A DNA stretch of 64,000 nt from Triparma columacea (lineage: Eukaryota > Sar > Bolidophyceae > Parmales > Triparmaceae). The DNA lies in the NCBI GenBank assembly GCA_030267965.1, contig BRYA01001451.1, positions 37,677-101,676 of the forward strand. The letters run 5' to 3'. Under the pieces are notes generated by a model that saw only the letters and a program-made list of their open reading frames with translations, did not search any database and had not been told where the DNA came from. Shown here in pieces: positions 20,070 through 26,287 of this stretch (its first letter is position 1; every line of letters starts with the position of its first letter). The position numbers and the translations under genes were made by a program.

Positions 20070-23000
20070 ATGGTGACCTCCTCCTCCTCCTCCTCCACAG
20101 CCTCTGCGGCTCCTCCTACCATTGTTGCACCTCCAACCCCCGCTTCTGTGGCTGACACAACGGCATTGGATGACTTCAAGTTTGAGGAGGCGCTAAATTA
20201 CATCAAAGAGGTGAAGGATGAGATCGGGGAAGGAGGGGTTTACGATGCGTTCCTAGAGACTATGGAAAAATTAAAAGCCAAGGAGGTCGATGCGCTCTGT
20301 GCCATCCCCACGATCAAGAAGCTACTCGAAGGCCACAGCACGATACTTCTTGGCTTTAGCACGTTCCTTCCTGAAGGCTACAAGATGCAAATTCGCTCCG
20401 ACAGTGTTGCAGACCACGCTCCGACTCTGCCTTCGACTCAAACTCTGACCTCGACTCCTCACTTGATAACTGAAAACAAGAAAGACGCGTTCTACGTAAA
20501 TGTGACGAACGTTTCAGCTTGTGGGGGTTGGGCCGGCGTGAGGAGGGAGATGGAGGCCTTCGTGGTGGGAAGGTCAGGGTTATCACTGACTGTGAGCGAC
20601 CCCAGCGTAAGGGCCATGAAAGGAAACGAGGCGTCCGGAGGACTGGACCTATTTGCCTACGACAAGAATATAAGGAAGATCACACTTCCCCACATTGAGG
20701 AGGTGAGAATATACGATGGGTGAAGTGACGAGCATAGCGATTTCCAACCCTTTCGTGACTTCTCGCTTCTCGCTTCTCGCTTCTCGCTTCTCGTTCACCC
20801 GCAGCTCGGAGACTGGGCCTTCGGGGGTTGCAGCAACTTGAGTGTGGTGGAAGCTCCCAGGCTGACCAAGCTCGGGCCCCACAGCTTTGCCATGTGCAAA
20901 AGCTTGACGAAGGTGGCAGTGGGAAGCGGGGAGGACACGGAAAAGAGGTGAGGTGGAGGCGGAGGGCGGAGCGAGGGGCGAGGGGCGAGGGGCGAGGGGA
21001 AAACTATCGGCGTAGATGTTGCCGAAGATGCACTCCCTCTCAAGTCTTTACTTCCTGTCATCCTCACCCGCTTATCACACAGGTTCGGAACTAATGTTTG
21101 GAAGCTCCCCAAGAGGGTGGGATCGAAGAGAACGAAGCCGCCAAAAATTTCTCGAGGGGGGGGGTTTGTATTTTCTCTCGACTCCTTTGCTCCCAAGGAG
21201 GAGTACGAAGGGGAGGGAGTTAAGAAGGGGCAGAAAAGAAAACAAGATCCCATCCCAAGACAGCACCGCCCAAAACAGCAACATTATGGTACGAGGTACT
21301 CGAATGAAGAGCCACCGCCCCCATATCCCCCAAGTATCCCACAAGAAATCCGACCGCCCCATGTTTCTCGTAAAAAATCCTCAATCACAGTGCTTGTGAA
21401 GAAGCTCAGGGCGGCCTTGGATTCCGCTGGCGCCAAAGGGGTCGAGGCGTCGAGTTTGGTGACTATCATGGGATGCAGTAAGAGGAGGGTCTACGACGTG
21501 CTTTGTGTCATCGACGGGGTTGGCCTTCTTGAAAGGATAGGGGGGAAAGCCAGCCGAAAGATTTATAGATGGAAATCCGATCAATTACGCGCGGTTGAAC
21601 GTGCAGCTGCGGGCTTGGGGGCGGGCTCGGGCACGGACACAGGAGCAGAGGGGGAAGGCAGCGCCGAGGATACGGGTGAACGGTCCAACCTACCGCTACC
21701 GACCCACGACCTGTTCTCAGCGTTTGCACCACCGGCTCAAGGCTCAGCCAACCCCCCCGCGTCGAGGCCAGAAGGTCCCAAGGAAGGCGAGGGAGCCAAG
21801 GAAGGCGAGGGAGCCAAGGAAGGCGAGGACATCGGCCCTCAGGTTGCCAAACTGAATTCAGAGATATCCTCCCTCGACACCATGATCGACGAGACTTTGT
21901 CCAACCTCCAAGCCTCGCGCTCAGGCCTTTACGTTTCGAAGTCGATAATATCCTCGCTTTTCGGCCCTGGGAAAAAGGTCGTCGCCGTAGGAGTCGGGGA
22001 GAAGTCCAAGGTTGACATCAAGGTCGATGGGCCGGCCGAGGGCGGGACCGTATTAATCAAGAGCACCAAAGGGGCAGAGGCAAACGTAATTTTTGGGGAT
22101 GTGAAAATAGGGACGAAGGAATTTGACATTGACGGGTTCGACATGATTGAGGAAGAGGGGGAGGAGGAGGAAGAGGAGGAGGAGGAGGAGGAGGACATGG
22201 ACATTGATGAGTTGAGGTTTGAGGAAGAGGGAATTGAGGAGTCGAGTGCTGAGGAAGAGGAGATGGAGGATGCGAAGGAGGGGGAGGAGGAGCAGGAGCA
22301 GGAGCAGGAGGAGGAGTGGGAGGAGGAAAAGAAGGTCAAGGCTAAGGTCAAGGGTAAGGTGAAGCAAAAGGGCAAGAATAAGGCGGAAAATGTCGTTTTC
22401 AACTCCGAGCAGGCCGCGGAGGTAATGACTAGGCTCGTCTCTTACGTGGCGTCCGAGCTCGTGCGGTCCGGTTCGTGTGCCCCCCCCAGCTCCCTCTCTA
22501 TAGCTCGGGATATGCTGGAGGGCTGGCACGTTAGGGTGAAACCTAGGAGGAAGGGGCCGCCGTGGCTGGACAAGTACTACCACGACGGGGCGGGGGGGGT
22601 ATGCAGGTCCATGAAGGAGGTTTTCAGGAGAGTTGTGAACCCAGAGATACAGAGGGAGGAGAATGACGCTGACGAGGAGGAGGAGAAAACGAAGGGCGAG
22701 GGGGGGGGGGGAGAGGCTAGGAATACTGAGGCTGAGAGGTTCAAGGAGGAGGAGGAGGAGGAGGAGGAGGAGGAGGAGGAGGAGGAGATTGAGGAGGAGG
22801 AGAAGAAGGAGGAGAAGGAGTCTGTGGCCGGTGGCATGTCCGTGTTTGGTCCCACCGTCAGTACCGTCTCCGTTCCTGCAGCCTCCGCCTCCGCCTCCGC
22901 CTCCGCCTCCGCCGGCAGCAGCAGCGGGCTCGGCGACACGGGATCCTCGCCCCCCCCCTTCGGAGGACTTGGATTCATGGATAGTTCCTTCTTCGAGGAG

Positions 23001-23246
23001 CCGCTCTTCTCAACAACGCCGGCAGGGGTGGAGTCGGAGGGGGGGGGGTCGGGGAAAGCGCGGGGGAAAAAAAGGAGGGACAGGGAGAGGGTGGGGTGCT
23101 CTAGGTGCAGGCACTCTAAGAACGGGTGCCTGCAGTGTAACCCTCACCACCCTAGGTACGCGAAGGGGGGGCGGGGGAAGAGGACGAGGGGGAGGAAGAA
23201 GGTACGGGAAGGTGGAGGGGGGGAGGAAGAGGAGGATGAAATCTAG
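20070..23246 (+). CDS. Sin3-type PAH domain - LRR_5 - E2F winged-helix fusion protein
   Basis: Exons 20070-20702, 20805-20947 and 21083-23246 join in phase for 979 residues. Residues about 34-110 are a paired amphipathic helix domain as in Sin3 (FEEALNYIKEVKDEIG, YDAFLETMEKLKA, LLEGHSTILLGFSTFLPEGY). Two LRR_5-type units follow (GDWAFGGCSNLSVVE, GPHSFAMCKSLTKV). Exon 3 carries an E2F DNA-binding domain (GCSKRRVYDVLCVIDGVGLLERIGG, with the RRxYD core) and then an E2F dimerisation/marked-box segment (EISSLDTMIDETL, GLYVSKSIISSLFGPGKKVVAVGV). Two Glu-rich tracts, a conserved middle segment and a terminal CSRCRHSKNGCLQCNP Cys block complete it. Exon 3 has no in-frame ATG before the winged helix, so the E2F part depends on the upstream exons. 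Expected role: nuclear regulator of cell-cycle-type promoters with a built-in corepressor-scaffold domain. Confidence 0.8.
20759..20793 (+). repeat. Seven-base tandem repeat (CTTCTCG) in an intron
   Basis: Five perfect copies of a 7-base unit lie in the pyrimidine-rich part of intron 1 of the PAH-E2F gene, just before the acceptor at 20804. They extend the polypyrimidine tract. A related G-rich array (GAGGGGC units) lies in intron 2 near 20970-20998. Confidence 0.8.
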
Positions 23247-23576: not shown

Positions 23577-25376
23577 TTAGAGAAACTCCAGAATTACTCT
23601 CCACAAAACTTTCGGCATCTTCTCACGTGCTGGGGTTACCCTTAGCGCGGGGGCTTCAACTCCCTCAGTTCGCTTCCGCTTCAGACTATCAGGTACACTG
23701 GGTTGATTCTCCACGTGATCCCAGGTTCCCTTGAGGCACAGCAGAGCGTTGACGCGTTCGATCACAGCGACATTGCGGTGCCACCTGTAATGGAGGAGGT
23801 CAGAGACGGTCGGCATATTTTTATCAGCAGCGGCAGCGATTAGGGCAGTGCAATTCAAGAAGCAGTCTTCACCGATGGAAGCGGCAGGAGATAGACTGAG
23901 TTTCGTTAGGTCGGAGCATCCAGAGAAGGCGCGTTCGCCAATCGTTGTCACTGAATCCGGGATAGTGATGGCCGTGAGGGAGGAGCATTCGCAAAAGGCT
24001 TCCTCGCCAATCGTCGTCACTCCGTCCGGGATGGTGATGACCGTGAGGGAGGAGCATCGGTTGAAGGCGCGTTCGCCAATCGTTGTCACTGAGTCCGGGA
24101 TGGTGATGGCCGTGAGGGAGGAGCATGCGAAGAAGGTGGATTTGCCAATCGTCGTTACTCCCTCCGGAATTGTGATGGCCGTGAGAGAGGAGCATCTAGA
24201 GAAGGCGACACGGCCAATCATCGTCACTGAGTCCGGGATTGTGATGGCCGTGAGGGAGGAGCATCCAGAGAAGGCGAGGTCACCAATCGACGTCACTCCG
24301 TCCGGGATGGTGATGGCCGTGGTGGAAGAGCATCCCAAGAAGGCCCAGCCGCCAATCCTCGTCATTCCGTCTGGGATGGTGACGGCAGTGAGGGAGGAGC
24401 ATTCGTAGAAGGTGGATTTGCCAATCGTTGTCACTCCATCTGGGATGGTGATGGCCGTGAGGGAGGAGCATCCTTGGAAGGCGCAATCGCCAATCTTCGT
24501 CACTCCATCCGGGATGGTGATGGCCGTGAGGGAGGCGCAATCCCCGAAGGCGCCCTTGCTAATCGTTGTCACTCCGTCCGGGATTGTGATGGCCGTGAGG
24601 GAGGAGCATCCAGAGAAGGCGAGTTCGCCAATTGTCGTCACTCCATCTGGGATGGTGATGGCCGTGAGGGAGAAGCATCCCCTGAAGGCGTGATTGCCAA
24701 TTGTTGTCACTCCATCTGGGATGGTAATGGCCGTGAGGGAGGAGCATCCAGAGAAGGCGCTTTCGCCGATCGTCATCACTCCGTCCGGGATGGTGATGGC
24801 CGTGAGGGAGGAGCATGCACCGAAGGCATAACTGCCAATTGTCTTCACTCCGTCCGGGATGATGATGGCCGTGAGGGAGGAGCATCCGTAGAAGGCGTCT
24901 TCGCCAATGATCGTCACTCCGTCCGGGATGGTGATGGCCGTGAGGGAGGAGCATCCTTGGAAGGCCTGATCGCCAATTGTCGTCACTCCGTCCGGGATGG
25001 TGATGGCCATGAGGGAGGAGCATCCTTCGAAGGCTCTTTCGCAAATCTCCTTCACTCCGTCCGGGATTGTGATGGCTGTGAGGGAACGGCATCTTTGAAA
25101 GGTTTCGTAGGCAATCAACGTCACCCCTTGTGCAAAAGTCACTTCTGTGAGTAGATGATTGCCTCTGAAGCTCTCTGTTCCGGAGTATACTGCTGTTTTG
25201 GGAAGGGGAGAGTACCCATCATCTGAGTCGTCATAGTCTCCATCACTATAGTCATCACTATAGTCATCCCACACACAGTTCACACAACAATAGTAGTCAC
25301 CACCATAGTTATCACCATACTCATCACTATCGTCATCACTATAGTCATCACCATAAGCAAAGTCTAATTCGCTCAT
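23577..25376 (-). CDS. BspA-type LRR_5 repeat protein 1
   Basis: Intronless, 599 residues. The N-terminus is acidic and Tyr-rich (MSELDFAYGDDYSDDDSDEYG). About 18 LRR_5 units of 23 residues follow, of the form LTAITIPDGV-TTIGxxAFxxCSS, then a capping unit LTKLSLSPAASIGEDCFLNC. The shared C-terminus contains YRWHRNVAVIERVNALLCLKG, a basic LKRKR stretch and the end KMPKVLWRVILEFL. No signal peptide or membrane span is present, so it is likely intracellular, and the basic stretch could be a nuclear signal. LRR_5 repeats form a protein-binding solenoid; the ligand is unknown. Between units the DNA is nearly identical except at codons flanking the AF pair. Confidence 0.85.
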   Translation of the reverse strand: MSELDFAYGDDYSDDDSDEYGDNYGGDYYCCVNCVWDDYSDDYSDGDYDDSDDGYSPLPKTAVYSGTESFRGNHLLTEVTFAQGVTLIAYETFQRCRSLTAITIPDGVKEICERAFEGCSSLMAITIPDGVTTIGDQAFQGCSSLTAITIPDGVTIIGEDAFYGCSSLTAIIIPDGVKTIGSYAFGACSSLTAITIPDGVMTIGESAFSGCSSLTAITIPDGVTTIGNHAFRGCFSLTAITIPDGVTTIGELAFSGCSSLTAITIPDGVTTISKGAFGDCASLTAITIPDGVTKIGDCAFQGCSSLTAITIPDGVTTIGKSTFYECSSLTAVTIPDGMTRIGGWAFLGCSSTTAITIPDGVTSIGDLAFSGCSSLTAITIPDSVTMIGRVAFSRCSSLTAITIPEGVTTIGKSTFFACSSLTAITIPDSVTTIGERAFNRCSSLTVITIPDGVTTIGEEAFCECSSLTAITIPDSVTTIGERAFSGCSDLTKLSLSPAASIGEDCFLNCTALIAAAADKNMPTVSDLLHYRWHRNVAVIERVNALLCLKGTWDHVENQPSVPDSLKRKRTEGVEAPALRVTPAREKMPKVLWRVILEFL

Positions 25377-25386
25377 AGTAAAGGAA

Positions 25387-26287
25387 TTCCTACATTATTG
25401 ACGGGAATCAGGAGGGTTAGTGTGGTGTGATTGACAAAGAACAAGGGACAGGGATTGTGAGATCCTCAAGGAATGTGTCATTGCGTCGTCAATAGCGGGT
25501 CTCTGCCCAGTAGCAACCACAATATGACACCAGAATATCGGAAATAGGGCCCAAAATAGTATTATCTCGTCTATAAGACGGTAATAAGACGGGAAAAAAC
25601 CCCACGAATACTCGACCTCGATTGAAGGGGAAATAACTTGGTTCCTTGACGTGAATAGGAGACTAAAATCATCGAGAGGACGAAATACAACTACATAAAG
25701 CCTTAAAAAGGGTCATCATTGTCATTGTTGTCCGCCTTACCTTTCTTTTGATAGATTTATTTATTGCCAATCCTCCCTCCACTGGGGTGGGTCTGGCAAA
25801 CCTGTGTGTTTTTTCTTAGAGTATTATCTTCTATTATTACGACCCGATTGTTTCATTCATGTCTGACTATACTTGGAAAAAGAGTAACGTTCGTGAAAAA
25901 AACAAAGAGTTACAGAAACTCCAGAATTACTCTCCACAAGACTTTCGGCATCTTCTCACGTGCTGGAGTTACCCTTAGCGCCGCGGGGGCTTCAACTCCG
26001 TCCAGTCTCTTCCGCTTCAGCCTAGCCGATCTCCTGGGTTGATTCTCCACGTGATCCCAGGTTCCCTTGAGGCACAGAAGAGCGTTGACGCGTTCCATCA
26101 CAGCGACATTGCGGTGCCACCTGTAATGGAGGAGGTCCGAGACTGTGGGCATGTTTTTATCAGCAGCGGCAGCGATTAGGGCAGTGCAGTTCAAGAAGCA
26201 GTCTTCACCGATGGAAGCGGCAGGAGATAGACTGAGTTTCGTTAGGTCGGAGCATCCAGAGAAGGCGCGTTCGCCAATCGTTGTCAC
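25387..26287. repeat. Segmental duplication, copy 1 (about 0.9 kb)
   Basis: Matches 27778-28678 at a constant offset of 2391 bases with scattered single-base differences. It spans the intergenic region between LRR genes 1 and 2 and the C-terminal coding part of LRR gene 2. The block starts at 'ttcctacattattgacggg'. Alignment by eye shows no indels. Confidence 0.85.

Follow-up and report, generated by a model that had tools for sequence, protein, structure and literature searches.

A putative E2F-family protein of Triparma columacea carrying a Sin3 PAH1-type domain and an LRR_5 block

A 64,000-nucleotide stretch of Triparma columacea DNA (GenBank assembly GCA_030267965.1, contig BRYA01001451.1, positions 37,677 to 101,676; hereafter the window, in whose numbering coordinates are given) contains a three-exon gene (20070–23246, + strand) predicted to encode one 979-aa protein, in which a whole-protein Pfam scan places a PAH domain first, then a BspA-type LRR_5 block, and after it an E2F winged helix. 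A preliminary description, made from the sequence alone, had reported this combination of domains, and the Pfam scan and the alignment to an environmental relative, P0001, confirm it. As an architecture, the PAH-LRR_5-E2F order is new to the E2F family; each of its modules is already known. By a modest margin of confidence, we read the gene product as a DNA-binding protein of the E2F family that carries a short LRR_5 block and a Sin3 PAH1-type docking domain of its own, and that would serve as a dock at E2F sites.

The three domains lie in one reading frame

P0001 is a 578-aa environmental protein from a 1,934-base JGI contig, with PAH, LRR_5, and E2F_TDP domains in a single reading frame and in the same order as in the fusion protein. 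It exceeds the Pfam cut-offs in all three families (PAH 37.5, E2F_TDP 32.5, and LRR_5 30.2 bits) and is identical to the fusion protein in 267 of 584 alignment columns (46%), the alignment crossing both exon junctions. Because P0001 keeps the three domains in one frame through both junctions, sequence comparison indicates that the fusion does not stem from a faulty gene model and is not confined to this assembly; two separate genes were rejected on the same ground.

Conservation between the two proteins is highest in the domains, with identities of 24/62 in PAH, 51/68 in the LRR_5 block (aa 191–258), 43/69 in the winged helix, and 56/93 in the coiled-coil/marked-box segment, and only 15 to 36% in the five linkers. 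We read this pattern as suggesting selection on one joined protein.

The exon structure agrees with this. Without splicing, the exon 1 frame runs into a stop at 20721 and that of exon 2 at 20949, and the exon phases of the preliminary description, 0 and 2, are confirmed by two GT-AG introns (Table 1). It had also noted that exon 3 has no ATG ahead of the winged helix and judged a separate E2F gene there unlikely. The earliest Met of exon 3 is residue 388 (21468), within the winged helix, and together with P0001 this bears out that judgement.

The same description had suggested looking for the fusion elsewhere. A search of ∼5.8 billion proteins, with 8000 candidates scored, gave 17 matches at E ≤ 0.01, one of them with all three domains, namely P0001. 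Two region searches with P0001 returned no further three-domain member (1/1 among 6535 and 1/9 among 2032, in each case P0001). Scans of bacterial and archaeal genomes and of viral contigs were seeded with LRR-block peptides only. The former found 23 loci in 61 stretches, matching P0001 residues 120–222, and the latter one locus of 56, matching residues 29–208, in which Pfam finds LRR_5 and other repeats and no PAH.

Assignment of the PAH, E2F, and LRR_5 domains

The N-terminal domain is of the Sin3 PAH1 type according to sequence profiles and a structure model. A two-row PAH profile matches Sin3A PAH1 (2rmr) with E=8.2e-15, by which we rejected a chance match, and the predicted P0001 PAH domain, a four-helix fold, matches the same structure; the PAH fold proposed in the preliminary description is found by both routes. 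The fusion PAH scores 55 bits with PAH1 of the host's own Sin3 and 21 with two PAH2 domains.

The winged helix scores 30.6 bits for Pfam E2F_TDP in the whole protein (cut-off 25.7). Its two-row profile finds E2F4 (1cf7_A) as the best PDB match (E=1.3e-6), followed by the unrelated MinD (0.0049) and E2F8 (0.16), and in hhalign its probability against host E2F genes and E2F4 is 97.6%. Scores of ∼26 bits for E2F, 16 and 13 for a two-winged-helix host gene, and 5 for a DP-like gene place it, by sequence, closer to E2F than to DP. An own-genome scan gave seven winged-helix matches at five loci: C701, C577, C561 (two), C752 (two), and the fusion locus; we read C701 and C577 as E2F and C752 as DP-like. 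The structural matches listed for the P0001 model include no E2F fold, and its E2F part has low pLDDT, so the model is uninformative either way.

Behind the winged helix, aa 515–597 probably form an E2F coiled coil and marked box, as judged by profile comparison. hhalign probability against the E2F CC-MB domain was 53%, and 31% in a second run, whose score of 25.6 exceeded 300/300 column shuffles (largest 19.3); direct sequence searches of this segment gave no PDB and no Pfam match. The preliminary description had spoken of a complete E2F unit: the winged helix stands and the marked box is moderately supported, so a complete unit is supported in part.

Three results weigh against these assignments. 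In the whole protein, PAH scores 17.1 bits, under the Pfam cut-off of 21.3 (scored alone, the N-terminal 137 aa reach 21.6, barely over it). The fusion locus is not among the five matches of a PAH model scan of the host assembly (37.85 Mb, 789 contigs), and Pfam E2F_CC-MB matched at two loci elsewhere in the host but not here.

The LRR_5 block exceeds its Pfam cut-off in the whole protein (29.0 bits vs 27.7) and is the domain best conserved in P0001. A cap similar to the one ahead of it occurs in a BspA-like host frame (C467:49549–49779; 43% over residues 161–237), and 58 of 64 rows in a search of the fusion protein against its own genome fall on the LRR_5/cap region. Since the cap resembles the C467 frame and these rows match this region, a local origin of the block is likely on sequence grounds, with the C467 frame as a candidate relative of its source. 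Nothing in a viral fold library matched at E ≤ 0.001, and the top rows there were mostly LRR proteins.

Proposed function and alternatives

We propose that the protein would bind E2F-like sites, probably together with a host DP-like protein (candidate frame at C752, by our labelling) through the winged helix and marked box, and that its PAH domain would capture single-helix motifs of the Sin3-interaction type. E2F sites would in this way become landing sites for helix-bearing factors, with no need of a pocket-protein adaptor. Another contact to proteins, perhaps the one under the strongest constraint, may come from the LRR block. The outcome could be repression, or relief of repression through competition with Sin3 for partners; we lean towards repression or regulated docking. 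The wider proposal, that an algal lineage built an adaptor-free E2F regulator in which a PAH1 pocket on an E2F unit, with an LRR_5 block as second sensor or docking surface, captures factors bearing Sin3-interaction helices at cell-cycle promoters independently of pocket proteins, is put forward tentatively, at somewhat less than even confidence.

In Sin3, as described in part of PMC6295471, HDAC binds the HDAC-interaction domain (HID) and the PAH domains bind short single helices of other factors. Pfam detects no HID (PF08295) in the fusion protein, and the single HID match of the assembly lies at C56, on a contig bearing PAH1- and PAH2-type matches. Because no HID is detected and HDAC binds the HID in Sin3, the fusion protein probably does not bring HDAC by itself. 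Of the two options raised in the preliminary description, direct recruitment of repressor complexes is less supported on this account, and binding of partners with Sin3-interaction helices appears the better fit.

The same absence of a detected HID would suit a decoy, in which the protein ties up Sin3-interaction helices at E2F sites, away from Sin3, and counteracts Sin3-HDAC repression; the host retains a single Sin3 that has an HID, with a PAH1 of its own. We consider this one of two main rivals, though unlikely: nothing indicates the direction of effect, and the conserved LRR block suggests a role more specific than titration. About equally unlikely is an E2F-family regulator with a changed PAH surface, whose PAH and LRR parts bind partners unrelated to Sin3-interaction helices, comparable to GON4L-CRAMP1. 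PAH has the lowest identity to P0001 of the four domains (24/62), and Gon4L PAH domains bind CRAMP1 according to the portion of PMC13001340 consulted; yet the domain remains closest to Sin3 PAH1 in both sequence and fold.

In E2F factors the RR-x-YD motif is a DNA contact. The motif SKRRVYD is identical in the fusion protein and P0001, and its KRRVYD aligns with KRRIYD of host E2F and E2F4. It is rather improbable that the E2F-like part no longer binds DNA and is kept for dimerisation only: the wing is longer than in host E2F genes and the E2F_TDP score is modest, but the motif is intact in both relatives. Least probable by far is a false merger of an adjacent PAH-LRR gene with an E2F gene, for although PAH scores weakly in the protein from the window itself and the model rests on genomic sequence, P0001 spans both junctions in one frame with all three domains and exon 3 has no Met ahead of residue 388.

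As to the dock reading's setting, animal E2F and Sin3 are brought together via pocket proteins and other adaptors, as stated in part of PMC6295471. An RB_A/RB_B (pocket protein) scan gave no match in the host, but control genomes were equally silent. For the diatom P. tricornutum, a passage of PMC2872877 mentions the finding of RB and E2F/DP members, as unpublished data. The window holds 6 TTTSSCGC E2F sites against 7.05 expected, none of them from 18574 to the start codon. The looser WTTSSCSS occurs 10 times in L020 against 6.77 expected (29/200 shuffles reach 10), with 4/10 upstream of the start codon.

Other features of the gene and genome

Table 1. Features of the fusion gene in window coordinates
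Feature	Position	Strand	Content	Evidence
Exon 1	20070–20702	+	N-terminal tail, PAH, linker, LRR N-cap, start of LRR_5	Open frame, GT donor; junction to exon 2 continuous in P0001
PAH domain (aa 35–107)	20172–20390	+	Sin3 PAH1 type	Pfam PAH 57–100; profile and fold matches to 2rmr
Conserved cap (aa 150–185)	20517–20624	+	ACGGW...SDPSVRAMKG, ahead of LRR	24/49 identical with P0001 over aa 140–190
LRR_5 block (aa 190–251)	20637–20924	+	Split by intron 1	Pfam LRR_5 over cut-off
Intron 1	20703–20804	+	102 nt, phase 0	GT-AG; no counterpart in P0001 reading frame (P0001 source: DNA or RNA)
Exon 2	20805–20947	+	Remainder of LRR_5	Gap-free alignment to P0001
Intron 2	20948–21082	+	135 nt, phase 2	GT-AG; TEKRFG-NVWKL junction continuous in P0001
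Exon 3	21083–23246	+	E2F part and C-terminal extension; TAG end	
Linker motif (aa 285–300)	21159–21206	+	GG-VFSLDSFAPK-EY	14/18 identical with P0001 over aa 284–301
E2F-type winged helix (aa 356–424)	21372–21578	+	SKRRVYD at 21477–21497	E2F_TDP over cut-off
Linker motif (aa 462–470)	21690–21716	+	LPLP-HDLF	9/14 identical with P0001 over aa 457–470
Probable coiled coil and marked box (aa 515–597)	21849–22097	+		hhalign to E2F CC-MB
MBD-like-looking segment (aa 737–776)	22515–22634	+		Chosen by eye beside host MBD matches
Cys module (aa 930–951)	23094–23159	+	GCSRCRHSKNGCLQCNPHHPRY; possible metal-binding knuckle	Two related copies at C732

The C-terminus, as read from the sequence, is long, acidic, and of low complexity. 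Within it, aa 737–776, a segment chosen by eye, score 6.4 bits (E=0.51) against a five-row host MBD model, above 998/1000 self-shuffles, and the whole exon-3 protein scores –2.6. The segment has no Pfam, PDB, or fold match, and Foldseek matches of its single-sequence structure (mean pLDDT 63.5) went no lower than E=2.8. We suspect that the Cys module is a small knuckle of chromatin proteins that binds metal. Two tandem copies (GC-RCR-SKNGCLQCNP) lie at C732:19700–19906, in a frame adjoining another with Tudor/Agenet matches under Pfam cut-offs, the two being perhaps exons of one gene; the C732 module may be a new motif by which algal chromatin proteins bind metal.

PAH domains also occur in two host frames on contigs with no HID match, C317:46775–46906 (375-residue frame) and C19:56590–56724 (315-residue frame), which may represent PAH outside Sin3 more than once in this host, or pieces of split genes. 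A fifth, weaker PAH match, at C156, is interrupted by a stop. About 330 bases downstream of the fusion gene lies a convergent neighbour (23577–25394, – strand), a BspA-type LRR_5 frame of 605 residues (LRR_5 E=2e-189). Rfam gave no match.

Comparison with known systems

The preliminary description knew of no protein with the PAH-LRR_5-E2F order, and an abstract-level literature search likewise found none, nor any PAH-E2F protein; the main text of PMC10328945 does not mention E2F. If the reading is true, E2F and Sin3 pathways were wired together independently, in one protein kept in a diverged relative. The fusion may be a novel mode of cell-cycle gene regulation, and it is a simple system in which to ask what a PAH pocket does on DNA instead of on an HDAC scaffold.

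Compared with the E2F family (E2F4, 1cf7; CC-MB domains of E2F4 and E2F5, 5tuu and 5tuv), the protein shares the RR-x-YD-bearing winged helix and, after it, a coiled coil and marked box that are probable and stand in their customary order, and adds an N-terminal PAH, LRR_5, and the long acidic C-terminus. Domain scans found no PAH match on the contigs of the host E2F loci C701 and C577, each locus being read over ∼3 kb. With Sin3 (PAH1-PAH2-PAH3-HID-Sin3a_C) it has one PAH1-type domain in common, and differs in having a single PAH, no detected HID, and its own DNA-binding domain. BspA-type LRR_5 proteins share the repeats and, in host frame C467, the cap, whereas in the fusion the block is short and lies within a nuclear-type regulator.

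Sin3B/HDAC1 with E2F4 and p107/p130, as portrayed in part of PMC6295471, likewise unites E2F with a PAH-bearing scaffold at target genes, but through separate proteins, whereas the link in the fusion protein is covalent. GON4L/Mute, compared here by description from portions of PMC13001340 and PMC7449961, is a non-Sin3 protein in which PAH repeats are joined to a Myb-like SANT domain; it acts on histone genes and is found with Sin3a and HDAC1. It has two PAH domains and SANT, with no LRR_5 named in those portions, against one PAH and E2F here. We regard GON4L/Mute as the nearest functional parallel.
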